Assembly: GCF_009646115.1 (NCBI RefSeq)
Contig: NZ_CP045720.1
Coordinates: forward strand, 310,001-374,000
Source: Pantoea eucalypti
GTDB lineage: Bacteria; Pseudomonadota; Gammaproteobacteria; Enterobacterales; Enterobacteriaceae
DNA length: 64,000 bases
Direction: 5' to 3'
Part shown: piece after piece, positions 11,721 to 43,194 of the stretch
Layout: every line of letters starts with the position of its first letter
How positions within the stretch are numbered: the first letter of the stretch is position 1
Notes under the pieces: model-generated
Seen by the model: the letters and a program-made list of their open reading frames with translations, nothing else
The model's database searches: none
What the model was told of the DNA's origin: nothing
Made by a program: the position numbers and the translations under genes

Positions 11721-11884
11721 CGCAGGCTCAGGTAACATGGTCAGATCGGAAAGTCGCTTAAGCCATCCATGGCCGCTCGGCCCGCCCCGTCCCTGGCGCG
11801 GGACGCTTTCCTCCTCTGACCATGTTACCTGCGCGTTGAGCTTATTTGTTGCTGCAACCTTCACCCTGCCTTGAGTAAGTCAGC
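11721..11884 (-). repeat. Dispersed imperfect palindrome, copy 1
   Basis: This is the first of three related copies, in reverse orientation. In the repeat's own direction it reads GCTGAC ... GCAACAAATAAGCTCAAC, then the left arm, a GC-rich centre with AGCGTCCCGCGCC, and the right arm ending GCCTGCG. Its arms GGTAACATGGTCAGA are identical when paired. It lies between iolR and iolC, both on the minus strand. Confidence 0.88.
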
Positions 11885-11930
11885 CGTCTGAGGCCATCGC
11901 GGTTGAGACAGTCTATAGCAGAGCATGAAA

Positions 11931-13844
11931 TCAGGCGCGGGCAGCACGCCAGTACTCAATCAGCCGCAGATAATTGCCTTTAACGGTCTCAATCAGCGCC
12001 TGATCGTCCAGTTCACCCTGCAGCCACTGGCGCGAAGGCTGACCAAAGATGGTGCGACCCACCGCAAAGCCTTTCACCCAGGGCGCGTTGGCCGCCGCGG
12101 CAAAGCCCGCTTTAAGCTTCTCTTCAGGCGCATCCAGACCGAGCAACAGAATGCCGCGACAGTGGGGATCCTGCTGCTCAATCAGCGTGCTGATCGCCTG
12201 CCAGCTTTCCGCGGACAGCGGTGGCAGTTTCCACCAGTCAGGCTGGATGCCCAGACTGTAGAAATGCGCCAGCATATTAAGGTAATAGGCTTCATTTTTA
12301 TCCGGGTTGCTCTCCGGCAGAATCACTTCCAGCAGCAGCTCATGCCCGCTTTTGTTACAGCCATTCCAGACGTCGAGCACCACGTCATCCTGCTCTTTAC
12401 GCAGTTCAGCACTGTCGTGAGGATGATAAAACACCAGACATTTCACGACGTGCTCGGCGGGCCAGTCGATCAGCTGCGAGCCAATGTTGCCATGCTCCAG
12501 GCGCAGCGGACGTGAGCTCGGCAGCTCAATCGGACGGCCAATCCACCAGTTCTTCCCGGTGATGGCATTCAGCGCTTTCTGACCATAGGTGGTATCCGCC
12601 AGAATACCGCTCTTATTCTCTAATCCCGCCTCTCTGGCGGCCTCCTGAGCGGCTTCCAGCAGCAGCAGTTTCAGCTGTGGAATACGGCTTTCATCCACGC
12701 CCGCTTCCTCCGCCATGTCCGCCAGTTGTTTGCGATGATCAAAAGCGAAAACGTTCAGCTCCGGCCACGCCTGCTTGCGGGTGGTCACGCGGTGCAGGTG
12801 GTTGAGACGACTGTCGAGATCGGGACGTTTCACCTCTTTGTCGCGGCTCAGGAAATCATCCAGTTCCGCTTTGGTTGGCATGGCCGGGGCACAGCCGTGG
12901 CGTGAAACCACCAGCGCCCCACAGGCGTTGGCGTAACGGCACGCCTGCTCCCAGCCTTCATCATTCAGCCAGCCGCGCAGCAGGCCAGACATAAAGGCAT
13001 CACCCGCGCCCAGCACGTTGAGCACGTCAACGCGCACGCCGGTGTGCAGCTGAGTCTCTTCCCAGCTATCCGGGATATCCCCTTCAAATACCACGCAACC
13101 CAGCGGACCGCGTTTGCAGACAAGCGTTGCCAGGCTCGCCTTGCGAACGTTCTTCAGAGCAGTCAGGGTATCGGTGCTGCCACCGGCAATGTGAAACTCC
13201 TCTTCGGTGCCGACGATCAAATCGAAATAGTGCACCACTTCCTGCAACTGTTGCGTAACCTGGGAAGACTCAATGAAACGCGTTTCACCATCACCCAGAG
13301 AGGTCAGCCCCCACAATACCGGGCGATAATCAATATCCAGCGCCGTTCGCAGACCGTTGCGGCGGGCGATATCCAGCGCTTTCAGCACAGCTTCACGGGT
13401 TTGTGGATGCGATAAGTGAGTACCGGTTACCGCTACCGCGCGGGAAGAGGTAATAAAGGTTTCATCAATATCTTCCGGCACCAGCCCCATGTCAGCGCAG
13501 TTATCACGGTAGAAAATCAGCGGAAAAGTCTCTTCGTCTTTGATGCCCAGGATCACCAGAGCCGTCAGACGCCGCGGATCGGTGATCAGCGCATCGGTAT
13601 TACAGCCGACGCGCTGCAACGCTTCACGCAGAAAGCGACCATTATGCTCATCTCCCACCCGCGCCAGCATCGCTGATTTCAGCCCCTGAATCGCGGTGCC
13701 ATAGGCGACGTTGCCTGAGGAACCGCCCAGATATTTCGCAAAGGAGGTGACATCTTCCAGCCGCGCTCCAATTTGCTGGCCATAAAAATCAACGGCAATT
13801 CGCCCGATACAAATCACATCAAGCGGCTTCTGTTGTGTACTCAT
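11931..13844 (-). CDS. iolC: Bifunctional 5-dehydro-2-deoxygluconokinase / DUF2090 aldolase
   Basis: This 637-residue protein joins two pathway steps. Residues 1 to about 325 form a PfkB-type kinase with CIGRIAVDFYG, YLGGSSGNVA and the catalytic-base segment NVLGAGDAFMSGLL. Residues from about 335 to the end form a DUF2090 domain (for example NVFAFDHRKQLADM and KGFAVGRTIF). Proteins of this architecture are annotated as phosphorylating 2-deoxy-5-keto-gluconate and cleaving the product to dihydroxyacetone phosphate and malonate semialdehyde. The aldolase role of DUF2090 is family knowledge. No separate iolJ aldolase gene occurs here, which fits the fusion supplying it. It is divergent from iolDGE. 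Confidence 0.92.
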   Translation of the reverse strand: MSTQQKPLDVICIGRIAVDFYGQQIGARLEDVTSFAKYLGGSSGNVAYGTAIQGLKSAMLARVGDEHNGRFLREALQRVGCNTDALITDPRRLTALVILGIKDEETFPLIFYRDNCADMGLVPEDIDETFITSSRAVAVTGTHLSHPQTREAVLKALDIARRNGLRTALDIDYRPVLWGLTSLGDGETRFIESSQVTQQLQEVVHYFDLIVGTEEEFHIAGGSTDTLTALKNVRKASLATLVCKRGPLGCVVFEGDIPDSWEETQLHTGVRVDVLNVLGAGDAFMSGLLRGWLNDEGWEQACRYANACGALVVSRHGCAPAMPTKAELDDFLSRDKEVKRPDLDSRLNHLHRVTTRKQAWPELNVFAFDHRKQLADMAEEAGVDESRIPQLKLLLLEAAQEAAREAGLENKSGILADTTYGQKALNAITGKNWWIGRPIELPSSRPLRLEHGNIGSQLIDWPAEHVVKCLVFYHPHDSAELRKEQDDVVLDVWNGCNKSGHELLLEVILPESNPDKNEAYYLNMLAHFYSLGIQPDWWKLPPLSAESWQAISTLIEQQDPHCRGILLLGLDAPEEKLKAGFAAAANAPWVKGFAVGRTIFGQPSRQWLQGELDDQALIETVKGNYLRLIEYWRAARA

Positions 13845-14389
13845 ACCTGTGGTTTCCTCTTGTGATTAGCAGGGCTGGCGGGCGAAAAGGTCGACGCTAT
13901 ATTCGCTCTGCATCCGGGTCTGTGGGTGTCTGACTGACAATGGGAGAATTATGAGGAATAAAAATTCCATATTCAATACGAAATGAAATATCCATCGCAA
14001 TTTTGTGAACCAGGTAAAACTCCTGATTCTCTTCCGTCTGCGCAGTCTTCGTCGGCACGATGTCCGGTATGCCAGGGTTGTGAAGGGGATCGCAGGAATC
14101 CGCACGCCAGTCAGGCATGCTGCTGCATTGAAATAAATTTTTTCATCATGTGCCACTCTCTTTTAAACGTTCCAGATTTCCCCTCTGCAATCCCCCGTCA
14201 GACCTGAAGCCGCCATTAAATTTGATCTCACTCGCAAAATGAAATGTTTCTTCTGTAATCGTGTTTTATGAAAAAAATATTTGTTTATAATCGCCTCACG
14301 TTTCAGTTATTCCGGTCGCCTTTTCCGCCCAAGACAACGCCTGGCGTGCTGTCGCGGAAGTCGGGGTCCACCAGCATGTAAGGAAGAAT
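13845..14389. promoter_or_regulatory. Divergent iolC / iolD control region
   Basis: This 545-bp region has several regulator-like dyads: GGAAT-AAAA-ATTCC at 13955-13968 and GAAA-TG-TTTC at 14241-14250, with a GAAATGAAATA sequence near 13980. A perfect TATAAT at 14286-14291 is the best -10 for iolDGE. The matching -35 is weak, which suits a regulated promoter. Open frames here show no family resemblance. The similarity of the dyads to those at iolA and iolR suggests that the same repressor acts here. Confidence 0.55.
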
Positions 14390-16330
14390 ATGAGCACTAT
14401 CAGACTGACCACGGCACAGGCGCTGGTTAAATTTCTGGATAATCAATTCATTGATGTCGATGGCGTTGAAACGAAGTTCGTCAAAGGTATCTTCGCGATC
14501 TTCGGCCATGGCAACGTGCTGGGGCTGGGCCAGGCGCTGGAACAGGATAGCGGCGATCTGATGGTTTATCAGGGCCGTAATGAGCAGGGCATGGCCCATG
14601 CTGCCACCGGCTTTGCCCGCCAGTCACTGCGCCGTCAGATTATCGCCTGCAGTTCATCCGTGGGGCCTGGTGCGGCGAATATGATCACTGCCGCCGCGAC
14701 GGCGACAGCTAACCGCATTCCGCTGCTGCTGCTGCCCGGCGACGTCTTCGCTACCCGCCAGCCCGATCCCGTACTGCAACAGATTGAGCAGAGCTACGAC
14801 CTCAGCATCAGCACCAACGACGCCTTCCGCGCCGTCAGCAAATACTGGGATCGCGTCAGCCGCCCGGAGCAACTGATGTCCGCCTGTATCAATGCCATGC
14901 GCGTACTCACCGATCCGGCTGAAACCGGCGCGGTCACGCTCTCTCTTCCGCAGGATGTGCAGGGCGAAGCCTGGGATTATCCGGACTACTTCTTCCAGAA
15001 ACGTGTGCACCGTCTGGATCGCCGTCTGCCGGTGGCGGCGCAGCTGGCAGATGCCCTGACGCTGATTAATCGTAAGCGCAAGCCGATGATTATCTGCGGC
15101 GGCGGTGTGAAATACTCCGAAGCGGGCGAGGCGCTGCGCCAGTTTGCTGAGCGTTATCAGATTCCCTTTGCCGAGACGCAGGCGGGCAAAGGCACGCTGG
15201 TTTCTGACCATCCGCTGAACGTCGGCGGCGTGGGTGAAACCGGCTGTCTGGCCGCTAACCTGCTGGCAAAAGAGGCCGATTTAGTGATCGGCATCGGCAC
15301 CCGCTACACCGATTTCACTACTGCATCGAAATGGATTTTCCAGCATCCCGATGTCAGCTTCCTGAACATCAATGTCAGCAACTTCGACAGCTACAAGCTG
15401 GATGGCGTGCAGCTGCTGGCCGATGCCCGCGAAGGGCTGACCGCGCTCACTGCCGCGCTGGCCTCACAGCACTACAGCAACGACTGGGGCAACCAGATTG
15501 AGCAGGCGCAGAGTCAGCTGTTGAAAGAGACGCAGCGCGTCTACCAGGTGGAATATCACGATGGCGACTTTGTGCCGGAGATTGCTGACCATCTCGACCG
15601 CGAAGCGGTGTTCGCTGAATTTAACCGCCTGACCCAGTCGCTGCTGACGCAAAGCAGCGTACTCGGCACGCTGAACGAGCAACTGCCAAAAGATGCGGTG
15701 GTCGTGGCAGCGGCAGGCAGTCTGCCGGGTGACCTGCAGCGCGTCTGGCGCACCAAAGATTACAACGCCTACCACGTTGAATATGGCTACTCCTGCATGG
15801 GCTATGAAGTGAATGCCGCGCTGGGTGTGAAGCTGGCGCAACCGCAGCGCGAGGTCTATGCGCTGGTCGGTGATGGCTCCTTTATGATGCTGCACTCAGA
15901 GCTGGTCACCTCGATTCAGGAAGGGGCGAAAATTAACGTGGTGCTGCTGGATAACATGACCAACGGCTGCATCAATAACCTGCAGATGGAACACGGCATG
16001 GACAGCTTCACCACCGAGTTCCGCTTCCGTAACCCGGAAGGCGGCAAGCTGGACGGCGGTTTTATCCCGGTCGATTTCGCCGCGATTGCTGCCGGTTATG
16101 GCTGCAAAACCTATCGTGTCACCACGCTGGAGCAGCTCAAAGCGGCGCTGGAAGATGCCCGCACCCAGACGGTTTCCACCCTTATCGACATCAAAGTGCT
16201 GCCTAAAACCATGATCCACAAATATTTCAGCTGGTGGCATGTCGGTGTGGCGCAGGCGTCGAAGACCGAACGCGCTCAGGCGGTGGCGGACAAGCTCAAC
16301 AGCCATCTGGATCAGGCGCGCAAATATTAA
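14390..16330 (+). CDS. iolD: 3D-trihydroxycyclohexane-1,2-dione hydrolase
   Basis: IolD is a cytoplasmic thiamine-diphosphate enzyme that opens the ring of the trihydroxycyclohexane-dione to give 5-deoxy-glucuronate. The 646-residue protein has the acetolactate-synthase-like three-domain fold: an N-terminal pyrimidine-binding domain ([14 protein letters not shown]), a central domain, and a C-terminal domain with the diphosphate and magnesium motif [15 protein letters not shown] running to NNLQMEHGM. The start is supported by GTAAGGAAG upstream. It is first in the iolD-iolG-iolE operon. Confidence 0.96.
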
Positions 16331-16334
16331 TTTC

Positions 16335-16357
16335 CGGGCCGTGCTGCGGCCCGTTTT
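16335..16357 (+). terminator. Attenuator-like hairpin between iolD and iolG
   Basis: The 6-bp all-GC arms CGGGCC and GGCCCG are followed by TTTT. The stem is short, so partial termination or 3'-end protection of iolD mRNA is more likely than a full stop. Confidence 0.45.
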
Positions 16358-16392
16358 CCTCTTCTCCGTACGAACCCTACACAGGTGTAATT

Positions 16393-17403
16393 ATGACTTT
16401 GAAACTTGGTGTCATCGGTACAGGTGCAATTGGTCAGGAACATATTCGCCGCTGCAGCCATGTGCTGCAGGGTGCCCAGGTGGTTGCCGTCTCTGACATC
16501 AATGTCGAAGGCGCGCGTGCTGCACTGCAGCGCCTGAACATTGAGGCGGAGGTGTTCGAAAATGGCCACGATGTGATTCAGTCACCGAATGTTGATGCGG
16601 TGCTGGTCACCTCATGGGATCCAACCCATGAAGAGTTCACCTTAGCGGCGATTGCCGCCGGTAAACCGGTGTTCTGTGAGAAGCCGCTGGCGATGAGCGC
16701 CGAGGGCTGCCGCCGGGTGGTGGATGCAGAGATCCAGGCCGGTAAACGCCTGGTGCAGGTCGGCTTTATGCGTCCTTACGATGCGGGCTATCGCGCCCTG
16801 AAAAAAGTGATTACCGATGGCGATATCGGTGAGCCGCTGATGCTGCACTGCGCGCACCGCAACCCGACCGTGCCAGAGAACTACACCACGCCGATGGCGA
16901 TCACCAACACCCTCATCCACGAGCTGGATGTGCTGCGCTGGCTGACAAACGACGACTATAAAACCGTGCAGGTCATCTTCCCGCGCGTGACGTCGAAGTC
17001 GCATGGTCAGCTGAAAGATCCGCAGATCGTCCTGTTCGAAACCCACAAAGGGGTGCGTATCGACGTTGAGATTTTTGTTAACTGCGCTTACGGCTATGAC
17101 ATTCAGTGTGAAGTGGTCGGTGAAGAGGGGATTGCTCGTCTGCCGGAGCCTTCATCAGTACAGCTGCGCAAAGATGCGCGCCTGTCGAACACCATTCTGG
17201 TGGACTGGAAAGATCGCTTTATCGAAGCGTATGACGTTGAGCTGCAGGCGTTTATCAACGACATCAAAGCGGGCCAGCTTACCGGACCTTCTGCATGGGA
17301 TGGCTTTGCCGCCTCCGTGGCCGCCGATGCCTGTATCAAAGCGCAGAACAGTGGTGCGATTGAGCCGGTAGAGATGCCGCCACGTCCTGCTTTCTATAAC
17401 TGA
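16393..17403 (+). CDS. iolG: myo-inositol 2-dehydrogenase
   Basis: IolG oxidises myo-inositol to 2-keto-myo-inositol with NAD, the first pathway step. The 336-residue protein has an N-terminal Rossmann domain with GTGAIG at residues 9-14, the catalytic Lys97 in CEKPLA, and His176 in [11 protein letters not shown]. Position 172, which is Asp in the B. subtilis catalytic triad as I recall it, is Asn here (TNTLIH). The start at 16393 gives [11 protein letters not shown], typical of the family; upstream open frame is discarded. It follows iolD after a small hairpin. Confidence 0.95.
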
Positions 17404-17450
17404 TTCAGCTGTCTATGCGGCCTGGCCGCTCTCCGCCTGGGAATGAGAAA

Positions 17451-18347
17451 ATGAACAAAGAGAACGTAAAACTGGCTATCGCGCCGATCGGCTGGACCAA
17501 CGATGACATGCCGGATCTCGGCAGTGAAAATACTTTCCAGCAGACCGTGAGTGAGATGGCGCTGGCTGGCTTTACCGGCAGCGAAGTGGGCAGCAAATAC
17601 CCGCGCGATCCGGCGATTCTGAAACCGATGCTCGACATTCGCGGCATCCAGATCTGCAACGCCTGGTTCAGCACCTTTTTCGCCAACGGTGACAAAGAGA
17701 AAACCATCGAACAGTTCATCGAGCACATGAACTTCCTGCATGCGATGGGCGCGCGGGTGATCGGCTGTTCTGAGCAGAGTAAAAGTATTCAGGGCACCGG
17801 GCTTGCGGTGTTTGAAGAGAAAGCGATTTTCAGCGATGAAGAGTGGCAGTTAACGGCAGAAGGCTACAACGAACTCGCCCGCATTGCAGCGGAGAAAGGG
17901 ATGCGCGTGACGCTGCATCACCACATGGGTACTGGCATTCAGACCACGGAAGAGATTGACCGGTTTATGGCGATGACTGACGAGCAGGTGGGTTTGCTCT
18001 ATGACACTGGCCACGTCTACTACTCCGAAGGCTCCCAGCAGAAGATGCTGGCGGTACTGGAAAAATATCTGCCGCGCATCTTCCACGTTCATCTCAAGGA
18101 TGTGCGTGATGAGGTGGTCGCTGAGGTGCGGGAGAATCATCTCTCATTCCTGGAAGGCGTGAAAAAGGGCACCTTTACCGTGCCTGGCGATGGCGTGATC
18201 GACTTCAAACCGGTGTTTAAAATTCTGGATGATTACGGCTACAAAGGCTGGATGGTGGTGGAAGCGGAGCAGGATCCGGCGCTGGCCAATCCTTTTGAAT
18301 ATGCCGTGAAAGCGCGGAAATATATCCGGGAAAATACAGGTTTATAA
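17451..18347 (+). CDS. iolE: Inosose dehydratase (2-keto-myo-inositol dehydratase)
   Basis: IolE removes water from 2-keto-myo-inositol to give the trihydroxycyclohexane-dione used by IolD. The 298-residue TIM barrel carries [14 protein letters not shown] at the N-terminus, [12 protein letters not shown] in the middle and [11 protein letters not shown], then the C-terminal [14 protein letters not shown]. The start at 17451 follows GGGAATGAG. It is the last gene of the iolDGE operon and is followed by a strong terminator. Confidence 0.95.
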
Positions 18348-18360
18348 TCTGCTCTGAATA

Positions 18361-18398
18361 AAGGCTGGCTTCCCCGTGGGAAGCCAGCCTTTTGTTTT
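18361..18398. terminator. Bidirectional terminator iolE / dcrB
   Basis: Two perfect 14-bp arms, AAGGCTGGCTTCCC and GGGAAGCCAGCCTT, enclose a 3-base loop, with TTGTTTT downstream of iolE. It marks the right border of the inositol cluster. Confidence 0.92.
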
Positions 18399-18951
18399 AC
18401 TTCAGCGTAATGCTTTTCACAATGTTGTCTGCATCGCTCTGCGCCTGCTGCTGATTATCGCCTGGCAGCGTAATCTGCAGTGTCACCAGCTTGCCATCGA
18501 CTTTAGCCAGCACCACAGAAGACCATGAGGTCTGATTGTTGGCAGAAATCACCGTATCCAGCTGCTGTGCGGGCTGATCTTTCAGCGTCACAGATTTGTT
18601 CGACACCACCTGCAGCTGCGGGTCGCGGTTACGCTGCTGCTGTTCCATGCGCTTCGACAGCACATCCAGCCCATCACTGGTCGGGTCGCCGGCAATCACA
18701 ATGATGGCGCGGGCACCGGTTTCATCTGCGTAAACGTGCATGTTCGTGGTCTGCGAACCCAGTTTACCGCTTTTATCTGACATGCCTGGTGGCAGTGAGA
18801 AGCTCAGTTTGCCATCCATCAGCGTGACAGTCTGCGCCGACTGACTGGCGCTGACGCCGTTGTCATTCGCCGCTTCATCTTTCTTCTGGTCACAGGCGGC
18901 TAAGCCCAATACCAGTAAACCCATTCCTACATATTTCACCAGATTGCGCAT
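18397..18951 (-). CDS. dcrB: DcrB family lipoprotein
   Basis: DcrB is a 184-residue lipoprotein. Its signal peptide MRNLVKYVGMGLLVLGLAAC ends in the lipobox LAAC, so Cys20 is probably lipidated. The rest is a DcrB domain with LMDGKLSFSLPPGM and RDPQLQVVSNK, very close to E. coli DcrB (185 residues), which is known as a host factor for phage C1/C6 infection and in envelope homeostasis. It is convergent with iolE. In E. coli it adjoins yhhS. Confidence 0.93.
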   Translation of the reverse strand: MRNLVKYVGMGLLVLGLAACDQKKDEAANDNGVSASQSAQTVTLMDGKLSFSLPPGMSDKSGKLGSQTTNMHVYADETGARAIIVIAGDPTSDGLDVLSKRMEQQQRNRDPQLQVVSNKSVTLKDQPAQQLDTVISANNQTSWSSVVLAKVDGKLVTLQITLPGDNQQQAQSDADNIVKSITLK

Positions 18952-19273
18952 CAGAATCCCTTTTTAAGTTTCCAGTCAGGCAGTAATACAACAGGAATCA
19001 GGCTGCAAACGCAACCTGATGATTGTCAGAAGATCTTAGCGGGTAATGGCGGAAATGGTATGGGCTCTTAGCGCCTGGCCAATCAGACTATTTTTTTGTC
19101 ATTCTGAACCTGGGCAGTGCTCACACAGGCTGCTTTAGCAACCTGAACGCCCGTCAGGGCGGCCCTGAAGGGGCGAGCGCAGCGAGTAATCCTCACGAAC
19201 TACGTGTACTACGGATTGTTCCGCGCTGTCCGTGTCCAGACTGCCTGCAACAATAACGTCTGATAAACCCGGC
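18952..19273. other. Intergenic region dcrB / yhhQ with a dispersed repeat
   Basis: The stretch 18952-19118 should hold the dcrB promoter. From about 19145 to 19256 the sequence is a structured repeat-like element (see the family B copy). No gene is seen. Confidence 0.5.
19173..19251 (+). repeat. Family B dispersed intergenic element, copy 1
   Basis: The segment with AATCCTCACGAACTACG, then GTACTACGGATT, GCGCTG and ACTGCCTGC resembles 35293-35353 in order and spacing. It has an AATCC/GGATT pair enclosing a CACGAACTACGTGTACT core. Similarity between the two copies is moderate, so this is a candidate repeat family only. Confidence 0.45.
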
Positions 19274-19939
19274 TCAGCCGAAATTGACCTGGCGGGCGGT
19301 CTGGCGTTCCGCCAGACGCTTCAGCGCGGCGTTGAGCAGTACGCCGTAGGCGGGCAGGAAGAAGACCATGCAGATAAGCACTTTGAAGCTGTAATCCACC
19401 AGTGCAATCTCAACCCAGTGCTGCGCCATAAAGGCATCAGGACTTTTGTAGAAGGCGATGAAGAAGAAGGCCAGCGTATCGCTGATATTTCCCAGGAACA
19501 TGGCACAGCCGGGTGCTATCCACCACTGTGGCAGACGACGCAGACGGTTGAATACATGAACGTCGAGGATCTGACCCAGCGCGTAAGCCATGAAGCTGGC
19601 GCAGGCGATACGGGCAACAAAGAGATTCATGACTTCCAGTGCCTGCCAGCCCTGCCATTCACCCTGATAAAACAGTGCCGAAACGCCGTAAGAGATAAAC
19701 AGCGCCGGGATCATCACAGCCAGAATAATGCGTCGGGCCAGCGGTGCGCCAAAAATACGCACGGTGAGATCGGTCGCCAGGAAGATAAAGGGAAAGCTGA
19801 ATGCACCCCAGGTGGTGTGGAAGCCAAAGACAGAAATTGGCAGCTGTACCAGATAGTTACTTGATGTGATCACCAGCAGGTGAAACAGCGACAACCAGAA
19901 AAGCGCATGCATGCGCTGACGTGAAGAAAATGCGAGCAT
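19274..19939 (-). CDS. yhhQ: Queuosine precursor transporter YhhQ
   Basis: YhhQ is a 221-residue inner-membrane protein of the VUT-1 family that imports queuosine precursors preQ0/preQ1. Distinct segments are LFWLSLFHLLVITSSNYLV, WGAFSFPFIFLATDLTVRIF and SFMAYALGQILDVHVFNRLR, nearly the same as in E. coli. I chose MLAFSSRQ at 19939, which gives exactly the E. coli length and has AAAGGTTG upstream, rather than the Met 12 codons earlier. It is divergent from tusA, as in E. coli. Confidence 0.93.
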   Translation of the reverse strand: MLAFSSRQRMHALFWLSLFHLLVITSSNYLVQLPISVFGFHTTWGAFSFPFIFLATDLTVRIFGAPLARRIILAVMIPALFISYGVSALFYQGEWQGWQALEVMNLFVARIACASFMAYALGQILDVHVFNRLRRLPQWWIAPGCAMFLGNISDTLAFFFIAFYKSPDAFMAQHWVEIALVDYSFKVLICMVFFLPAYGVLLNAALKRLAERQTARQVNFG

Positions 19940-20143
19940 ATTCAACCTTTTTATTGTTGGGGTGAGGGAACCCATTGCGGGACGCCGTTCGGGCAGCGCC
20001 TGGCAGTTTTATGAGCAAAAAGCGGCGGCATCTTACCGCGTTGTGCTTTTTATGCAATGGTTAATTTTAACGCAATCGTTATCGCCTTGCTTCACCGCCA
20101 GCACGCGCTAGAATAGGCGCCCTTTTGCTGAACCGAGTTGATT

Positions 20144-34535: not shown

Positions 34536-34536
34536 G

Positions 34537-35250
34537 ATGGCAAATGCGATGTTAACCATTGAGAACGTCAGCGCCCACTACGGCAAAATTCAGGCGCTGC
34601 ACAATGTCAGCCTCTATATCAATCAGGGTGAAATCGTTACCCTGATTGGCGCTAACGGCGCCGGAAAAACCACGCTGCTGGGTACGCTGTGCGGTGAGCC
34701 ACGCGCCACGCAGGGCACCATTACCTTTGATGGCAAAGCCATCACCGACTGGCAAACGGCGCGCATTATGCGTGAAGCGATTGCCATCGTGCCGGAAGGC
34801 CGGCGGGTGTTTTCACGCATGACGGTGGAAGAGAACCTGGCGATGGGCGGTTTTTTTGCCAGCCGTCCGGATTATCTGACGCGGATCAAACGCGTTTATG
34901 AACTCTTCCCGCGTCTGGAAGAGCGTAAAATCCAGCGCGCTGGCACCATGTCAGGCGGCGAACAGCAGATGCTGGCAATTGGCCGTGCACTGATGAGCCA
35001 GCCGCGACTGCTGCTGCTGGATGAGCCGTCACTGGGGCTGGCACCGATCATTATTCAGCAGATCTTCGACACTATTGAGCAACTGCGTAGCGAGGGGATG
35101 ACGATCTTCCTGGTGGAGCAGAATGCGAACCAGGCGCTGAAGCTGGCGGACAGGGGCTATGTGCTGGAGAACGGGCATGTGGTGCTCGAAGACACAGGTG
35201 CAGCGCTACTCTCCAACGAAGCCGTCCGCAGCGCTTACCTCGGCGCTTAA
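34537..35250 (+). CDS. livF: Branched-chain amino acid ABC transporter ATPase LivF
   Basis: LivF is the second ATPase of the LIV system. The 237-residue protein has Walker A GANGAGKTT, signature MSGGEQQMLAIGR, Walker B LLLLDEPSLGLAP and the switch region FLVEQNANQAL. It is the last liv gene; no clear intrinsic terminator follows, and the downstream space carries dispersed repeats. Confidence 0.97.
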   Translation: MANAMLTIENVSAHYGKIQALHNVSLYINQGEIVTLIGANGAGKTTLLGTLCGEPRATQGTITFDGKAITDWQTARIMREAIAIVPEGRRVFSRMTVEENLAMGGFFASRPDYLTRIKRVYELFPRLEERKIQRAGTMSGGEQQMLAIGRALMSQPRLLLLDEPSLGLAPIIIQQIFDTIEQLRSEGMTIFLVEQNANQALKLADRGYVLENGHVVLEDTGAALLSNEAVRSAYLGA

Positions 35251-35292
35251 GGTTTAGAGGCCTGGCTTACTTGCCATTTCGACACCGGGCAG

Positions 35293-35353
35293 TGCTCGCA
35301 TTCCTCACGTACTTCAGTACGCTCCGGATGCTGTGCGCTGGCCGGTGCCGAAC
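35293..35353 (+). repeat. Family B dispersed intergenic element, copy 2
   Basis: ATTCCTCACGTACTTCAGTAC is followed by CTCCGGAT, GCGCTGGCCGG and ACTGCCTGC (segments listed separately, each within 21 bases). An internal hairpin has arms CGTACT and AGTACG. Order and spacing of these blocks match the element near 19190-19251. Confidence 0.45.
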
Positions 35354-35510
35354 TGCCTGCGACGCCGACGGCCTTGAGTGTCGGTGTGGGTGGTGGTGCC
35401 GACGGCCTTCAAATTTGCCTGAAAGTAGGGGCAAGTTCTGCCATTGCCAGAGGCCGTTGCAGCTTCTGGTAATAAATTCGACGTAATAATGATGTATAGC
35501 AGCTCAGGTT

Positions 35511-35675
35511 GCTGACAAACTCAAATCAGGTGAATCTGGCCGCAACACATAAACTTAACGCGCAGGGAACACGGGCAGAAGAGGAAAGCGTCCCGCGCCA
35601 TGGACGGTGCGGGCCGAGCGTGTCATGGATGACGGATTTTGCGTCTTTCCGATCTGACCGTGTTCTCTGCGCAGG
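35511..35675 (+). repeat. Dispersed imperfect palindrome, copy 2
   Basis: It runs from GCTGACAAAC to CTGCGCAGG and aligns over its whole length with copy 3 (43030-43194) and with copy 1 in reverse. The arms are GGGAACACGGGCAGA on the left and, read in reverse complement, GAGAACACGGTCAGA on the right. Confidence 0.9.
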
Positions 35676-35751
35676 GCACAGTCTTAAAGCAAGCCAGACT
35701 TTGTCAACAATCTCAACAATAGTTAGCTGCTCCGCTTTTCCTCTTTTTCGC

Positions 35752-35791
35752 CTGTCATCCGGCTGTCATCTCCCTGTTATTAATCCGTCAT
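35752..35791 (+). promoter_or_regulatory. Tandem Pho boxes upstream of ugpB
   Basis: Four heptamers CTGTCAT, CTGTCAT, CTGTTAT and CCGTCAT start at 35752, 35763, 35774 and 35785, an exact 11-bp period. Two such repeats make one PhoB site, so two adjacent PhoB dimers are expected. This predicts phosphate-starvation induction of ugp. Confidence 0.92.
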
Positions 35792-35864
35792 TTCCCCGTG
35801 TCATGTTACTTCGCGAAACAGAAATCCGTGATTTCACGCGTATTTACCTGCACAGGAAAATTCT

Positions 35865-37181
35865 ATGTCCGTCGTTACCTTTCGTCGTAGCCTGATGAGC
35901 GCGCTGCTCGGTCTGATGCTCAGCAGCCATGCCATGGCCGCCACTGAGATCCCTTTCTGGCACTCCATGGAAGGCGAGCTTGGCAAAGAAGTGGATTCGC
36001 TGGCACAGCGTTTTAACGAGACGCATCCCGATTACAAAATTGTTCCGACCTACAAAGGTAACTACGAGCAGAGCCTGGCAGCAGGGATTGCGGCCGTGCG
36101 CAGCGGCAAAGCGCCAGCGGTGCTGCAGGTCTATGAAGTCGGTACGGCGACCATGATGGCCTCAAAGGCGATTGTGCCGGTGCATCAGGTATTCAAAGAC
36201 GCCGGCATTCCCTTCGATGAAAAACAGTTCGTGCCAACGGTGGCGGGCTACTACAGCGACAGCAAAGGTCAGCTGATCTCTCAGCCGTTCAACAGCTCGA
36301 CGCCGGTGCTCTACTACAACAAAGACGCTTTTAAAAAAGCGGGCCTGAACCCGGACCAGCCGCCTAAAACCTGGCAGGAGCTGGCGACAGATGCCGCCGC
36401 ACTGCGTAAATCGGGCATGAGCTGTGGCTACGCCAGCGGCTGGCAGGGCTGGATCCAGATTGAAAACTTCAGTGCCTGGCATGCTCTGCCGGTCGCGACG
36501 GAAAACAACGGATTTGACGGACTCGATGCGGTGCTGGAGTTCAACAAGCCGGTGCAGGTTCGTCATATCGAACTGCTGGAAGCGATGAACAAGAAAGGGG
36601 ACTTCACCTACTTTGGCCGCAAAGATGAATCCACCGCCAAGTTCTACAACGGCGACTGCGGTATCACCACTGCCTCATCGGGTTCGCTGGCCGATATCCG
36701 TCACTACGCCAAATTCAACTTCGGCGTTGGCATGATGCCGTATGACGACACTGTACCGAATGCGCCGCAGAACGCCCTGATTGGCGGAGCCAGCCTGTGG
36801 GTAATGAAAGGCAAAGATGCAGCAACGTACAAAGGCGTAGCTGAGTTCATGCAGTTCCTGGCTAAACCGGAAATCGCTGCGGAATGGCACCAGAAAACCG
36901 GCTATCTGCCGATTACGACCGCCGCCTACGAGCTGACGAAACAGCAGGGCTTCTACGACAAAAATCCGGGTGCGGATATCGCGACCCGCCAGATGATGAA
37001 CAAGCCGCCATTGCCCTTCACTAAAGGCATGCGTCTGGGCAACATGCCGCAGATTCGTACCGTGATCGACGAAGAGCTGGAAAGTGTCTGGACCGGCAAA
37101 CAGTCGCCACAAAGCGCACTGGATAACGCCGTGAAACGCGGCAACGAGCTGTTGCGCCGCTTTCAGCAGCAGGTGAAGTAA
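35865..37181 (+). CDS. ugpB: sn-glycerol-3-phosphate periplasmic binding protein
   Basis: UgpB is the periplasmic receptor for glycerol-3-phosphate and glycerophosphodiesters. The 438-residue precursor has a signal peptide ending SSHAMA before [15 protein letters not shown]. The length and segments ([35 protein letters not shown]) match E. coli UgpB (438). It is the first ugp gene, placed behind the tandem Pho boxes. Confidence 0.97.
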
Positions 37182-37190
37182 TCTCTTCCT

Positions 37191-37214
37191 GCGGGCCCGC
37201 TCAGGCTGGCCCGC
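37191..37214 (+). other. Hairpin between ugpB and ugpA
   Basis: Arms GCGGGCC and GGCCCGC with a 10-base loop are followed by TCTTTCT. It probably reduces expression of the permease genes relative to the binding protein or protects the ugpB mRNA end. Confidence 0.5.
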
Positions 37215-37236
37215 TCTTTCTGACGCCAGGTATGCC

Positions 37237-38124
37237 ATGTCTTCATCCCGTCCGGTCTTTCGCACCAGCCTGTTGCCCTATCTTCTGGTACTGCCGCAAC
37301 TGCTGATTACCGCCATCTTCTTTCTCTGGCCTGCGGGTGAAGCGTTGTGGTACTCGCTGCAAAGCCTCGATCCCTTTGGCATCTCCAGCAGCTTTGTCGG
37401 GCTGGAAAATTTCAGACGGCTATTTGCCGATCCTTACTATCTCGATTCGTTCTGGACTACCATCAAATTCAGCGGCATGGTCACGGTGTTCGGCATGGTC
37501 TTCTCGCTGCTGCTGGCGGCGCTGGTGGATTATGTGGTACGACTCCGCCGCCTCTATCAGACCCTGCTGCTGCTGCCTTACGCCGTTGCGCCGGTGGTGG
37601 CTGCGGTGCTGTGGATGTTTCTGTTTAACCCTGGCCTGGGTCTGTTCAGCTACCTGCTGAACCACGTCGGCTACAACTGGAACTTCGCGCAGAACAGCGG
37701 TCAGGCGATGTTCCTGGTGGTGCTGGCCTCGATCTGGCAGCAGATGAGCTACAACTTCCTGTTTTTCTTTGCCGCACTGCAATCTATCCCTAAATCGCTG
37801 GTGGAAGCCGCTGCCATCGACGGAGCCGGACCGGTGCGTCGCTTCTTCAACCTCTCACTGCCGCTGATCACGCCGGTCAGCTTCTTCCTGCTGGTGGTGA
37901 ACCTGATCTACGCCTTCTTCGATACCTTCCCGGTGATCGATGCCGCAACCGGCGGCGGGCCGGTGCAGGCGACCACCACGCTGATCTACAAAATCTATCG
38001 CGAAGGCTTTACCGGTCTGGATCTCTCCTCTTCCGCGGCGCAGTCGGTGGTGCTGATGTTGCTGGTGATCGGGCTGACGGTGCTTCAGTTCCGCTTTGTT
38101 GAACGTAAGGTGCAATACCAATGA
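37237..38124 (+). CDS. ugpA: sn-glycerol-3-phosphate ABC transporter permease UgpA
   Basis: UgpA is an inner-membrane permease of the Ugp system. The 295-residue protein has six predicted segments and the MalF/G-type EAA loop [23 protein letters not shown] (given as [12 protein letters not shown] and [11 protein letters not shown]). Its length equals that of E. coli UgpA. It overlaps ugpE by 4 bp (ATGA). Confidence 0.97.
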
Positions 38125-38966
38125 TTGAGAATCGACGCGGGCTGGATATCTTCAGCCACATCGTGCTGGTGCTGGGCGTGCTCACTATCCTCTTTCCGCT
38201 CTATGTCGCCTTTGTGGCGGCAACGCTGGATAACGAGGCGGTCTATCAGGTGCCGATGACCCTGGTGCCCGGCACGCACCTGTGGGAGAACATCTCGCGC
38301 ATCTGGACGCAGGGCGTCAACGGCAGCGGACCAGCGTTTGGCCTGATGCTGCTCAACAGCATGATCATGGCGCTGGGTATCACCTTCGGCAAAATTACCG
38401 TCTCAATGCTGTCGGCGTTTGCGCTGGTCTGGTTTCGCTTTCCGCTGCGCACGCTCTTTTTCTGGCTGATCTTCATCACCCTGATGTTGCCGGTTGAAGT
38501 GCGTATCTTCCCCACGGTGCAGGTGATAGCCGACCTTAATATGCTCGACAGCTACAGCGGATTAACTCTGCCGCTGATGGCGTCGGCCACCGCGACTTTC
38601 CTGTTCCGTCAGTTTTTTATGTCGCTGCCGGATGAGCTGGTAGAAGCGGCGCGTATCGACGGTGCCAGCGCAATGCGCTTCTTTATCGACATTGTTCTGC
38701 CGCTGTCGAAAACCAATCTGGCGGCGCTGTTTGTCATCACCTTTATCTACGGCTGGAACCAGTATCTCTGGCCGCTGCTGATCATCAATGACGCCAGCCT
38801 CGGCACAGCGGTGGCGGGGATCAAAAGTATGATCTCCACCAGTGGATCGCCGACCCAGTGGAATGAAGTGATGGCGGCAATGTTATTAACCCTGATCCCG
38901 CCGCTGGTGGTGGTGTTAGTCATGCAGCGTGCCTTTGTGCGCGGTCTGGTTGAGAGTGAGAAATAA
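38121..38966 (+). CDS. ugpE: sn-glycerol-3-phosphate ABC transporter permease UgpE
   Basis: UgpE is the partner permease of UgpA. The 281-residue protein contains [19 protein letters not shown] at the N-terminus and the EAA loop [17 protein letters not shown]. The length matches E. coli UgpE. It overlaps ugpA by 4 bp and ends 1 bp before ugpC. Confidence 0.97.
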
Positions 38967-38967
38967 G

Positions 38968-40041
38968 ATGGCAGGCGTAACCCTTCAGGCAGTAACCAAG
39001 TCCTACGATGGCAAAAATCAGATCATTCAGCCGCTGAACGTCACCATCAATGACGGCGAGTTTATGGTGATGGTGGGGCCATCCGGCTGCGGTAAATCGA
39101 CGCTGCTGCGCATGGTAGCCGGACTGGAGCGCGTCAGCTCCGGTGATATCTACATCGACAACCGGCGCGTCACTCAGGAAGAGCCAAAAGATCGCGGCAT
39201 TGCGATGGTGTTCCAGAATTACGCGCTTTATCCCCACATGTCGGTGGAGGAGAACATGGCCTATGGCCTGAAAATCCGCGGCATGGGCAAAGAGCAGATT
39301 CGCCAGCGGGTGCTGGACGCAGCGCGCAGCCTGGAATTGGATCACCTGCTGATGCGTCGGCCTCGCGAACTCTCGGGCGGTCAGCGCCAGCGCGTGGCGA
39401 TGGGACGCGCCATCGTACGTGAACCGGCGGTGTTTCTGTTCGATGAGCCGCTGTCGAATCTTGATGCCCGCCTGCGGGTGCAGATGCGGCTGGAGCTGCA
39501 GCAGCTGCACCGCCGCTTACAGACCACCAGTCTCTATGTGACGCACGATCAGGTCGAGGCGATGACGCTGGCACAGCGGGTGATGGTGATGAACAAAGGC
39601 GTGGTCGAGCAGCTTGGCACGCCGGTCGACGTATATGAACGTCCGGCCAGCCAGTTTGTGGCCTCGTTTATCGGTGCGCCCGCCATGAACCTGCTGAAAG
39701 GACAGTTCAGCAGTGACGGCTCGCGCTTCCAGCTTGATGCCTCACACGCGCTGCCACTCAGCGACACAAAAGCGAAATGGGCTAACCGCCCGGTGGTGCT
39801 GGGCATCCGGCCAGAGCATATTCAACTCAGTAGCCGCGAGCAGGGCGGCGTGCCTTTGCGGGTCGATACACTGGAGATGCTGGGTGCCGATAATCTGGCA
39901 CATGGTCGCATCGGGGAGACGCCACTGGTGGTACGCTTAGCCCACAGCGAACGGCCGCAGCCAGGCAGTACGCTGTGGCTGCATCTGCCGTCAGATGCGT
40001 TACACTTCTTCGATTCAACCCATGGAAAGCGTCTGGAATGA
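38968..40041 (+). CDS. ugpC: sn-glycerol-3-phosphate ABC transporter ATPase UgpC
   Basis: UgpC is the MalK-like ATPase of the Ugp transporter. The 357-residue protein has Walker [10 protein letters not shown], signature [14 protein letters not shown], Walker [12 protein letters not shown], the switch in [10 protein letters not shown] and a C-terminal OB-fold regulatory domain from about residue 235. The start MAGVTLQAV at 38968 matches E. coli; 13 upstream codons within ugpE are not used. It overlaps ugpQ by 4 bp. Confidence 0.97.
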
Positions 40042-40781
40042 GCACACAACACTGGCCTTATCCCCGCATCGTCGCTCATCGCGGCGGCGGTAAACTGGCA
40101 CCGGAAAATACCCTGGCAGCCATCGACACGGGTGCGAAATATGGCCATCAAATGATTGAGTTTGATGCCAAATTATCAATGGATGCCCAAATCTTCCTGC
40201 TGCATGACGACACACTGGATCGCACCAGCAACGGCTGGGGCGTGGCAGGTCAGTTGCCCTGGGAGAAGCTGTCGCAGCTCGATGCAGGCAGCTGGTTTGA
40301 CAAGGCGTTTACCGGCGAGAAGCTGGCGCGGCTGGATGAGGTGGCAGCACGCTGCCGTCAGCATCAGATGATGGCAAACATCGAAATCAAACCGACCACC
40401 GGCAGTGATGCCGAAACCGGACGTGCGGTGGCGCAGGCAGCCGCAATCCTGTGGCAGGGACAGACCGCGCCGTTGCTCTCTTCATTCTCGTTTGAGGCGC
40501 TGGAGGCAGCAATGCAGGCCGAACCACAACTGCCGCGTGGTCTGTTGTCGCACAGCTGGGATCCCGAGTGGCAGGCAAAAACAACAGCGCTGGCCTGCGT
40601 CTCGATCCATCTGAATCACAAGGTGCTGACCGCTGAGCGGGTCGCCGAACTGAAAGCGGCCGGACTGAAAATTCTGGTTTATACCGTGAACAACCCGGAT
40701 CGGGCGCGGGAATTGCTGAAATGGGGCGTCGATGCCATCTGTACTGACAGCATCGACATCATTGGCCCCGATTTTCATTAG
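40038..40781 (+). CDS. ugpQ: Cytoplasmic glycerophosphodiester phosphodiesterase UgpQ
   Basis: UgpQ hydrolyses glycerophosphodiesters brought in by the Ugp transporter to glycerol-3-phosphate and an alcohol. The 247-residue GDPD TIM barrel has the catalytic [12 protein letters not shown] motif, [22 protein letters not shown] (as EFDAKLSMD and LLHDDTLDR), and NIEIKPT. No signal peptide is present, in line with a cytoplasmic site. The start overlaps the ugpC stop (ATGA). Its stop region overlaps the convergent yhhA gene by 4 bp. Confidence 0.96.
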
Positions 40782-41059
40782 TTCTGGTTTTGATTCTGCT
40801 GGCCCGGCTGCGAGGTAATAACCCGCTGCTGGGCGCTATTTCGCTGTTCCTGCATTTTGCGCTGCATATCCTGCGTCTGACGCTGCTGATCCTGGCGCAG
40901 CTTCAGCTGCTGCTGCTGCTGATCGGTCTGCATCTGCGACTGCATCCGCTGCTGGCTCGGGTTATAGCCCGGTTTATTGGGATCATTGGTGCTGTTGAGC
41001 GTGTTCGCCTGGCTGGCGAATGGCAGCAGGGCCGCTAAAACAATTATCCACTTTTTCAT
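40778..41059 (-). CDS. yhhA: DUF2756 glutamine-rich secreted protein YhhA
   Basis: YhhA is a 93-residue precursor with a signal peptide ([20 protein letters not shown]). The mature part is dominated by Gln, Arg and Met, for example [18 protein letters not shown], and probably forms one helix or is disordered. Function is unknown. The start has a very strong GGAGGAG ribosome site. It lies between ugpQ and ggt, as in E. coli, and its end overlaps ugpQ by 4 bp. Confidence 0.85.
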
Positions 41060-41266
41060 CACTCCTCCTTCCGTAAACGCGACAGGGTTTTGGGTGCACA
41101 ATCGCGCACCCCGATATCAGGGTCGCATCCATAAGTTTACCCGATATCACAGACCTTACTTTCAGATGTATTCCTGATTTGACTTAACCCCGGTTATTTT
41201 GCTGTATTTGTAGAGACTTGCAGAAATGATAAAAAAATGTAAATAACTATACGGGATGGTGGCAGG

Positions 41267-43018
41267 ATGAAAATGCAGCAAACAGTGCGTCAGCTTAGCT
41301 GGTCGCTGGTGATGAGTTTCACCGTGGTGGCAGGGGCGAACGCCGCACCCACTCAGGCACCGCCGGTCTCTTACGGCGTGGACAGTGACACCTTTCATCC
41401 GGTAAAAGCGCAGCACGGCATGGTGGCGTCGGTGGATGCGATGGCAACCCAGGTCGGCGTGGAGATCCTGCGTCAGGGCGGGAATGCAGTGGATGCCGCG
41501 GTCGCTGTGGGCTTTGCGCTGGCCGTGACCCATCCGCAGGCAGGCAATCTGGGCGGCGGCGGGTTTATGCTGCTGCGCACCGCATCGGGACGCGCGACGG
41601 CTATTGATTTCCGTGAAATGGCACCGGGCCACGCGTCGCGCGATATGTTCCTGGATAAGCAGGGTAATGCCGACAGTAAGCTGTCGCTGACATCACATCT
41701 TGCCTCAGGTACGCCGGGCACTGTGGCCGGACTGGCGCTGGCTGCGCAGAAATATGGCACCCTGCCGCTGAGCACTCTGCTGGCACCGGCGATCAAACTG
41801 GCGCGTGACGGTATTCCGGTCAATGACGCACTGGCGGATGACCTGAAAACCTACGGCAAAGAGGTCCTGATTACCCATCCCAACAGCAAAGCGATCTTCT
41901 ATAAACCGGACGGCACGCCGTGGCAGAAGGGTGACCGGCTGGTGCAGAAGAACCTGGCGCACAGCCTGCAATTGATTGCCCGTCAGGGACCGGATGCCTT
42001 TTACAAAGGTGAAATTGCAGATGAGATCGCCGGAGAGATGGCGCAACACGGCGGCCTGATCAACAAAGCTGATCTGGCAGCCTATCGCGCGGTCGAGCGT
42101 AAGCCCGTCAGCGGGACATACCGTGGCTATGAAGTCTTCTCAATGCCGCCTCCGTCATCCGGTGGTGTCCATATCGTGCAGATTCTGAATATCCTGGAGA
42201 ACTTCGATCTGGCGAAGATGGGCTTTGGCAGTGCAGACGCCATGCAGGTGATGGCTGAAGCGGAAAAATATGCCTACGCGGACCGCTCGGAATATCTCGG
42301 CGATCCCGATTTCGTGAAGGTACCGTGGCAGGCGCTGACCAGTAAAGCCTATGCTAAAAGCCTGGCACAGCAGATCGATGTGGCGAAAGCGCGGCCTTCC
42401 AGTGAGATCAAACCCGGCAAGCTCGAACCTTATGAAAGCAATCAGACGACCCATTTCTCGGTGGTCGACAAGCAGGGAAATGCGGTTGCGGTGACTTACA
42501 CGCTGAACACCTATTTCGGCAGCGGAATTGTGGCGGGCAAAAGCGGCATCCTGATGAATAACGAGATGGATGACTTCTCTGCCAAGCCAGGCACGCCAAA
42601 TGTCTACGGACTGGTGGGCGGTGAGGCGAATGCGGTGCAACCGGCGAAGCGTCCGTTGTCATCGATGTCACCGACCATCGTCGCCAAAGGCGGCAAAACC
42701 TGGCTGGTCACCGGCAGTCCTGGCGGCAGCCGCATTATCACTACGGTGTTGCAGATGGTGGTAAATAGTATCGATTTCGGGATGAATGTGGCGGAAGCCA
42801 CTAATGCGCCGCGCTTCCATCATCAGTGGCTGCCGGACCAGCTGCGAGTGGAGAAGGGCTTCAGTCCTGATACGTTGCGTCTGCTGGAAGCCAAAGGTCA
42901 GCATGTGAAGGTGCTGCCATCGATGGGCAGTACGCAGAGCATCATGATTGGGCCGGATGGCATGCTGTATGGCGCGTCTGATCCGCGTAGCATTGATGAT
43001 TTGAGTGCGGGTTATTAA
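41267..43018 (+). CDS. ggt: Gamma-glutamyltranspeptidase
   Basis: Ggt is a periplasmic enzyme that hydrolyses glutathione and transfers the gamma-glutamyl group. The 583-residue proenzyme has a signal peptide (about residues 1-27, ending VVAGANA). It cleaves itself before the N-terminal nucleophile Thr394 in SNQTTHFSVVD, equal to E. coli Thr391. The large-subunit motif QGGNAVDAAVAVGFAL and the small-subunit GTPNVYGLVGGEAN-like segment and PLSSMSPTIV are present. It stands alone between yhhA and a palindromic repeat. Confidence 0.96.
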   Translation: MKMQQTVRQLSWSLVMSFTVVAGANAAPTQAPPVSYGVDSDTFHPVKAQHGMVASVDAMATQVGVEILRQGGNAVDAAVAVGFALAVTHPQAGNLGGGGFMLLRTASGRATAIDFREMAPGHASRDMFLDKQGNADSKLSLTSHLASGTPGTVAGLALAAQKYGTLPLSTLLAPAIKLARDGIPVNDALADDLKTYGKEVLITHPNSKAIFYKPDGTPWQKGDRLVQKNLAHSLQLIARQGPDAFYKGEIADEIAGEMAQHGGLINKADLAAYRAVERKPVSGTYRGYEVFSMPPPSSGGVHIVQILNILENFDLAKMGFGSADAMQVMAEAEKYAYADRSEYLGDPDFVKVPWQALTSKAYAKSLAQQIDVAKARPSSEIKPGKLEPYESNQTTHFSVVDKQGNAVAVTYTLNTYFGSGIVAGKSGILMNNEMDDFSAKPGTPNVYGLVGGEANAVQPAKRPLSSMSPTIVAKGGKTWLVTGSPGGSRIITTVLQMVVNSIDFGMNVAEATNAPRFHHQWLPDQLRVEKGFSPDTLRLLEAKGQHVKVLPSMGSTQSIMIGPDGMLYGASDPRSIDDLSAGY

Positions 43019-43029
43019 TTTCCAGGACT

Positions 43030-43194
43030 GCTGACAAACCTAAACCCAGGTGAATCTGACAGCAATAAATAAGCTCAATGTGCAGGGAACTGGGTCAGAA
43101 GAGGAAAGCGTCCCGCGGCAGGACGGCGCGGGACGAGCGTGTCATGGATGACAGCTTTTGCGTCTTTCCGATCTGACCCTGTTTCCTGCGCAGG
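43030..43194 (+). repeat. Dispersed imperfect palindrome, copy 3
   Basis: It runs from GCTGACAAACC to CTGCGCAGG and aligns with copy 2 over 165 bp. Arms are GGGAACTGGGTCAGA and, in reverse complement, GGAAACAGGGTCAGA. It lies just past the ggt stop codon. Confidence 0.9.

Follow-up and report, generated by a model that had tools for sequence, protein, structure and literature searches.

The stretch analysed here, referred to as the window, comprises 64,000 nucleotides of a 4.8-Mb Pantoea genome (G000; C1:310001-374000) and holds three copies of a dispersed palindromic element that belongs with YPAL/RU-2, a miniature inverted-repeat transposable element (MITE) of Yersinia. All three lie where an initial annotation of the window had placed them, each in intergenic space according to our own gene calls, and their mean column identity in the alignment is 83%. 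The size of about 165 bp first assigned to them proved too short; the palindrome is real, but the whole element measures 207-212 bp once its terminal repeats are included. Copy 1 occupies 11685..11891 on the reverse strand, while copies 2 and 3 occupy 35504..35715 and 43023..43231 on the forward strand, with covariance model (CM) cores at 11722-11837 (-, 121.3 bits), 35557-35676 (136.5 bits) and 43077-43195 (129.1 bits), respectively. Copy 2 shows its inverted ends clearly, with TCAGGTTGCTGACAAA at 35504-35519 and TTTGTCAACAATCTCA at 35700-35715 (+ strand); the 3' terminal repeat is degenerate in copies 1 and 3, and another copy in the same genome (C1:3511858) has near-perfect inverted ends. 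The initial annotation recorded neither these ends nor two features described below, the conserved GGA loops and the terminators that serve as targets.

Inwards from the terminal repeats, a left segment of ca. 50 nt is followed by a stem of roughly 20 pairs, then by an internal loop and a short second stem (GGAAAGCG/CG-CTTTCC), and finally by two inner hairpins with CCGAGC between them; the conserved junction of the top-strand fold reads AAAGCGTC ... CGAGC ... GCGTCTTT. Sequence reading and folding place the loop of inner hairpin 1 at 11789..11794 (-, AGGGAC) in copy 1 and give the hairpin CCCGCGCC-ATGGAC-GGTGCGGG at 35592..35613 (+) in copy 2, and sequence reading identifies a pentaloop, AGGAC, at 43120..43124 (+) in copy 3. 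The loop of inner hairpin 2 is ATGGAT in copies 1 (11765..11770, -) and 3 (43144..43149, +), again by reading and fold; in copy 2 the consensus structure gives GTC-ATGGAT-GAC at 35622..35633 (+), a stretch that this copy's own minimum-energy fold pairs differently. The GGAs of the two hairpins are 24-25 nt apart in the window copies. As initially described, the arms pair within each copy yet differ among copies, copy 3 having one T-T mismatch (AACTGGG/CCCTGTT). An intrinsic terminator recognized by sequence reading lies directly past the 3' end of copy 1 (11657..11684, -), and a diverged partial copy of it is found on the opposite side of the element (~11893-11905; flank alignment CAACCGCGATGGC / CAACCGGGATGGC). 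Another intrinsic terminator abuts the 3' end of copy 3 (43230..43258, +), so that copy 3 is enclosed by this terminator and the gamma-glutamyltranspeptidase gene, whose stop codon is at 43018.

The initial annotation had made its case depend on further copies in the same genome and on paired changes beyond expectation, and both are found. Copy 2 yields 51 blastn high-scoring segment pairs in the genome, and R1, a CM built from 18 own-genome copies, retrieves 56 matches at E<=0.01, two of which are reverse-strand echoes. Double-sided change affects 19 of the 39 pairs in this set of 18, compared with 6.3 after shuffling and 5-8 when the partners are slid, and 93.5% of cells are paired versus 38.6-44.2% with slid partners. 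For 75 copies from eight genomes (Ningiella and seven relatives) there are 1241 double-sided pair changes against 348.5 in shuffles, and 96.8% of 2829 cells are paired against 40.3-45.8% with slid partners; the number of pair types is not above shuffles (141 versus 141.3), and the 75-copy alignment was fitted to the model, which leans to structure and favours GGA loops. At the copy 3 site, one stem pair appears as T-T, A-T and G-C in three species.

Some own-genome copies carry, at the hairpin 1 loop, a 78-bp module that adds one AGGGAT hairpin loop and is in tandem in two of them (C1:1051445, C1:2808971). The module is present or absent at two same plasmid sites in different P. agglomerans strains (L380/L381 and L382/L383), which indicates that it moves by itself or spreads via gene conversion. 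Whole elements also occur in tandem arrays of two to four copies spaced by ~190-255 bp (G000:C1:1328578-1329071 and 2349407-2349719; G059:C4:362534-363038; G085:C8:206901-207772). A diverged sister family with an AAAGCAT core and GGGAGC...GCTCCC arms has the same two GGA loops (G000:C1:3148165-3148281, 431555-431673, 2048807-2048925 and others); it sometimes adjoins a YPAL-like copy and carries the 78-bp module at C1:2636311.

The window elements are almost certainly the Erwiniaceae form of YPAL/RU-2. Compared with the 168-bp RU-2 sequence in Table 1b of PMC2759123 (papers cited here by PMC number are represented by extracts), copies 1, 2 and 3 gave E = 2e-12, 5e-13 and 3e-9 in a set of six subject sequences, and global identities of 64, 71 and 63%, against a mean of 43% and a maximum of 51% for 30 shuffles of copy 2; the ends of copy 2 align to RU-2 as short pieces (E 0.47 and 0.13). 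The YPAL traits described in PMC2229807 are variable target duplications, dyad-symmetric targets, empty sites and ends without TA. The window elements likewise have internal inverted repeats and ends without TA, which also sets them apart from ERIC with its terminal TA (PMC2229807), and the family shows target duplications at dyad symmetry, although the 28 bp seen at locus L382 slightly exceeds the published range of 3-26 bp. The YPAL length of 167-168 bp does not hold for the window copies, whose 207-212 bp we treat as a length variant because the homology spans both core and ends. The consensus fold of YPAL had already been reported as conserved, with an RNAz score of 1.00 (PMC2267715). CGTC-tagged REPs were considered and rejected by size, being single hairpins of 20-40 bp (PMC3733652).

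The same repeat also has an RNA entry: Ysr224 (Rfam RF02770) corresponds to the reverse strand of YPAL, scoring 133.9 bits on a Y. similis copy (L205) and 90.2 bits on a Pectobacterium copy (L212); window copy 2 reaches 44.2 bits (E 3.3e-9), under the gathering score of 70. The entry that one survey places among the most abundant bacterial sRNAs (extract of PMC9029176) is hence a multi-copy repeat. The initial annotation, which saw something ERIC-like that was neither ERIC nor REP, a genus-level miniature element or structured RNA, was right about the kind, the mobility and the maintained hairpin; it was wrong to leave the element unnamed and to confine it to one genus.

R1 matches occur in 21 of 40 relatives (own genome included), with 0-64 copies per genome within the genus and none in 5 of its 23 other members. 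Beyond the genus, genomes picked for holding a match contain 89 (Y. similis), 20 (Pectobacterium), 23 (Mixta), 29 (Ningiella, Alteromonadales), 11 (Bisbaumannia, Halomonadaceae) and 8 (Halomonas). Sixteen of 40 Ningiella relatives, Ningiella included, have matches, as do at least 12 of 274 genomes sampled across the class (own included), a lower bound since scoring covered 13 candidates per genome. Loci outside the enterics were reached by a pattern scan that demanded the second GGA loop; 50 of 80 of its loci (themselves 80 of at least 119 stretches) hold an R1 match. Plasmids contributed 29 records with the element, all from Pantoea. Phages gave no match, nor did E. coli genomes at E<=1e-3; three YPAL copies have been counted in E. 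coli (extract of PMC2847712). The record L218 (Enterobacter ludwigii EnVs2; = G043) was not counted as Enterobacter: its matches are the same in place and score as those of G022, a member of Pantoea, and the species name on the record is probably wrong.

We next consider where the element inserts. Among 48 own-genome copies (46 of the 56 CM matches, at E <= 1.6e-6, plus two partial copies), 35 lie between convergent genes, 6 are tandem-sense, 7 tandem-antisense and none divergent. A sense 3'-untranslated region (UTR) element, as the window copies would have it (3/3 sense), was overturned by this genome-wide count. A terminator was found in the flank of 25 of the 35 convergent sites compared with 7 of 400 random 90-nt windows, a rough comparison because the flanks range from 12 to >1000 nt; the terminator finder was strict and missed plain terminators, such as that of copy 3. 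Repeats flanking the same copy are stronger than those between copies (0/10000 permutations), and in several copies repeats of ~16-25 bp span terminators. Seven of 45 same-copy flank scores reach the 99th percentile of cross-copy scores, one of them reflecting a tandem array and not a duplication. The cleanest duplication is on a P. agglomerans plasmid (L382), where an identical 28-bp terminator sequence stands on both sides.

Unfilled sites are found as well. The element is present at the copy 2 site in G019 but not in G015, G007 or G009, and at the copy 3 site in G015 and G019 but not in G009. Sites are shared with own-genome elements in 10 of 20 regions of G019 (20 of 62 examined) and in 9 of 14 regions of G015 (drawn from 62 matches). 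A thin search of the own genome revealed no element-encoded or end-matched transposase. Searched with <=3 mismatches, a 15-base end pattern gave 178 forward and 192 reverse hits in that genome against 63 and 48 for the reversed-pattern control, the pattern being too degenerate to judge. Two one-mismatch matches away from elements, among the matches listed, were both coding. A connection with IS1202, suggested by the long target duplications, is conjecture.

The most conserved part of the element is the pair of inner hairpins, both of which end in C-A(N)GGAN-G loops that are near-invariant on variable stems among the 75 copies. In hairpin 1 the A, the GGA and the closing C are each present in 75/75 copies, and in hairpin 2 the A is present in 74/75, the two Gs in 74/75 and 75/75, and the final A in 75/75. 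The hairpin 1 columns just under the closing pair hold 0.05-0.14 bits, and the outer left arm a mean of 0.15. In a wider set of 162 entries, at least one stem-closed A(N)GGA loop occurs in 160 and two occur in 120, whereas single-base shuffles leave ~7 with any. This set consists of 35 own-genome copies, 52 from the pattern-scan loci (after removal of three reverse-strand duplicates), 25 Ningiella copies and 50 of a further 51; one Ningiella copy was entered twice (L247 = L364), which leaves 161 copies.

Such loops resemble the binding sites of the global regulator CsrA. In the extracts of the relevant papers, an ANGGAX hexaloop on a stem is a high-affinity CsrA/RsmE site (PMC4005645), the CsrA consensus obtained by systematic evolution of ligands by exponential enrichment (SELEX) is RUACARGGAUGU (PMC7652899), and CsrA bridges sites 10-63 nt apart with an optimum above 18 nt (PMC4005645, PMC7652899). 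The element has hexaloops of this form directly on a stem and two sites within that distance, and its C-G closing pair and GGAU agree with the SELEX consensus. Six of the 18 own copies have in hairpin 1 the pentaloop AGGAC, which lacks the N and is described in PMC4005645 as a lower-affinity form. On these sequence features, whether CsrA binds the element appears to us evenly balanced.

The mismatches within the stems bear on which strand folds. On the strand that carries the GGA loops (the GGA strand), 88 clusters of distinct outer arms from the same set contain 108 G-U and 39 A-C mismatches (p = 1.1e-8), with G-U above A-C in 9 of 10 genome groups; the inner-hairpin stems contribute 4 G-U and 2 A-C, too few mismatches for a strand test. 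Since a strand-blind process would give equal counts, the excess supports, short of proof, folding of the GGA strand as RNA or single-stranded DNA (ssDNA). Folding of the GGA strand and not of its complement is thus supported though not settled, and a selected fold of this strand is in our view probable.

The Ningiella copies add a different kind of evidence. Their middle parts are alike (0.66 versus 0.40 shuffled), but their outer arms are nearly unrelated (0.43 versus 0.38), the 25 copies forming 25 clusters, and yet the arms are 95% self-complementary within each copy. Either these are old copies whose stems have drifted by paired change under selection, or the arms were made at insertion, perhaps by copying from the target. 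In G050 and G051 related arms, judged by eye, diverge by paired changes and G-U intermediates, which favours drift.

The fold is also known under another name. The Rfam model of the TwoAYGGAY RNA (RF01731) gave 22 matches above cut-off in a set of 15 genomes, most of them selected because they hold R1 matches. All 11 full-length above-threshold matches (in Ningiella and three relatives) coincide with R1 matches in place and strand, so that the Pantoea YPAL model and an independent Rfam model converge on the same loci, and copies in G040, G049, G057 and G059 that R1 also finds reach the RF01731 gathering score. By way of these loci, which lie in other genomes, the window element and TwoAYGGAY RNA can be assigned to one kind of fold. 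TwoAYGGAY was earlier proposed to bind CsrA (extract of PMC4333381). Of the window loops, ATGGAC and ATGGAT of copy 2 fit AYGGAY, while the hairpin 1 loops of copies 1 (AGGGAC) and 3 (AGGAC) fit A(N)GGA only. The other 11 matches are partial, lie in two Pantoea genomes and belong to a different GGA-rich repeat, non-coding by our own gene caller, arranged in inverted pairs and clusters and rich in GGA hairpin loops (G000:C1:1651668-1653096, 765470-765822, 1709800-1710802 and 1586322-1586968, L476, L477, L480 and L481; G019, L478 and L479). Its partial TwoAYGGAY matches reach 50.6 bits, above the gathering score, and it may be another dispersed CsrA-type RNA repeat.

Around the demonstrated family membership, copy number, insertion sites, paired change and loop conservation we build a tentative interpretation, to which we give slightly less than an even chance: a YPAL/RU-2 mobile element whose two-loop top-strand fold is clamped by CsrA. 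On this reading the element is a dispersed, non-coding and non-autonomous one that in Pantoea is mobilized as one piece bounded by terminal inverted repeats of ~16 bp, inserting at or near intrinsic-terminator hairpins, mainly between convergent genes and at times duplicating the terminator. Its conserved part is the top-strand fold, in which a long stem free in sequence and a conserved junction present the two C-A(N)GGAN-G hairpins. The GGA strand might be transcribed by read-through or from a promoter of its own, one CsrA dimer could then clamp both loops, and the outcome may be titration of CsrA, changed stability of the carrier RNA, or both. A benefit to the host seems doubtful. A broader proposal unites YPAL, Ysr224 and TwoAYGGAY as mobile CsrA-binding hairpins of a single gammaproteobacterial family: transposition would spread hairpins with two CsrA docking sites over dozens of intergenic positions, selection would afterwards maintain the shape of individual copies, with their private, well-paired stems and conserved loops, and genomes would come to hold a dispersed sponge or a MITE-wired regulon. 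This is speculative and rather unlikely.

Several observations speak against the CsrA interpretation. No orientation bias exists at the own-genome tandem sites (6 sense versus 7 antisense); the 25 Ningiella copies include 7 tandem-sense, 13 tandem-antisense and 3 convergent ones; the 21 of 43 copies in seven Ningiella relatives with both neighbours called on short flanks divide into 6 sense, 6 antisense, 5 divergent and 4 convergent; and 12 between-species site pairs comprise 7 with the same and 5 with opposite orientation (L344/L462 and L347/L467 aligned poorly and were excluded). Ysr224, moreover, is annotated on the strand without the GGA loops, and this, together with the lack of orientation bias, makes a simple role in mRNA 3' UTRs less likely. 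Terminator duplication would shield some copies from transcription. The G-U:A-C ratio is 66:13 inside the model-scored stem and only 42:26 outside it (p = 0.07), and part of the excess may be ascertainment because the covariance model favours G-U. Retrieval by the CM itself rewards GGA loops, and the hairpin 2 stem is short and less free (0.35-0.94 bits). Copy 2 scores 18.3 bits with RF01731 (E 2.8) against a gathering score of 43, and the best own-genome element of YPAL kind reaches 34.9 bits, also below it, so the window copies are not filed as TwoAYGGAY members; RF01731 has no match at E<=0.1 in 5 of the 15 carriers (G041, G045, G051, G053 and G086). The presence of csrA in 19 of 19 carriers examined counts in favour of the interpretation; to our knowledge, though, the gene is near-universal in the class, which makes its presence a weak test.

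The main rival explanation is that the fold serves the element itself, its top strand, as ssDNA or RNA, being recognized through the two GGA loops and the junction by a mobilizing enzyme, in the way proposed for REP hairpins and tyrosine transposases; the loops would then be conserved because copies that lose them stop spreading. The unfilled sites, terminator targets, target duplications and terminal repeats are all in keeping with this, as are the patchy copy numbers within the genus and the absence of orientation bias relative to genes, including the reversed orientation in 5 of the 12 site pairs shared between species. The G-U excess would also suit ssDNA, in which G-T is the best tolerated mismatch. 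We nevertheless consider enzyme recognition unlikely, given that loop, closing pair and spacing agree in detail with those of a CsrA site, that no transposase encoded by the element or matched to its ends was seen in the thin search, and that the private yet self-complementary arms of Ningiella suggest old copies each kept in shape, unless those arms were made at insertion.

Two simpler explanations fare less well. The element could be a plain 3'-end hairpin which, where transcribed, is an RNase III substrate or a 3' stabilizer of the adjacent mRNA, roles discussed for YPAL and ERIC, with its GGA loops free of protein. Copies 1 and 3 do sit between a stop codon and a terminator, and YPALs are described in the extract of PMC2229807 as made with upstream genes (printed 'co-translated') and possibly affecting RNA stability, but near-invariant loops over variable stems would go unexplained, and we regard this as improbable. 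Less probable still, indeed very unlikely, is an element with no function, in which templated correction of quasi-palindromes keeps a DNA palindrome perfect. This would account for paired changes in the absence of selection and for orientation without bias, and outside the modelled stem the G-U and A-C counts are not clearly unequal; it predicts, however, equal counts, against the overall excess observed, and would conserve neither loops nor junction. Should CsrA indeed bind the fold, a transposable element would spread the sites of a global regulator around genomes.

Two further features lie near the window copies. The RyhB sRNA is found at 43911-43976 (+, 83.5 bits, Rfam), ~700 bp beyond copy 3. 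Just upstream of copy 2, a separate dispersed repeat of ~115 bp occupies 35259-35375; it has further matches in many relatives at ~79-95%, several of them clustered in G023.

Among known systems, the window element is of a known kind, YPAL, in a new and longer Erwiniaceae variant. It shares with YPAL/RU-2 the core sequence, the ends of copy 2, internal inverted repeats, GC-richness, variable target duplications at sites of dyad symmetry and unfilled sites. The Pantoea form differs in its length (~210 versus ~168 bp), with an extra ~22 nt to the left of the stem and further added sequence to its right, and in the optional 78-bp module in the hairpin 1 loop; the terminator targets are named here. 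ERIC/RU-1 is likewise an intergenic palindromic MITE of enterobacteria, but the ends of the window element are TCAG/CTGA and not TA, and its length is different (compared by features, not by alignment). YPAL itself was already known; new here are the link to TwoAYGGAY, the strand question, the CsrA-type loops, the preference of own-genome insertions for convergent gene pairs and the longer variant. No paper linking YPAL, Ysr224 and TwoAYGGAY, or YPAL with Pantoea, was found in a search that most subscription papers lay outside.

Through the comparison YPAL as a mobile repeat, Ysr224 as an sRNA entry and TwoAYGGAY as an RNA without an assigned function become one candidate family; it also raises the question of which strand folds and supplies a testable ligand, CsrA. 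Ysr224 is catalogued as an sRNA gene, and on the strand that lacks the GGA loops; in the present description it is a repeat. With TwoAYGGAY RNA the element has in common a long outer stem around two hairpins with ANGGAN loops, and it departs from it in hairpin 1, where copy 1 has a G and copy 3 no base at the position that the name gives as Y. The sponge RNAs CsrB, CsrC and RsmZ also present GGA in hairpin loops (extracts of PMC7652899 and PMC4005645); they are sRNA genes with many sites, in contrast to the window element, which is a dispersed repeat with two sites, or three where the module is present.

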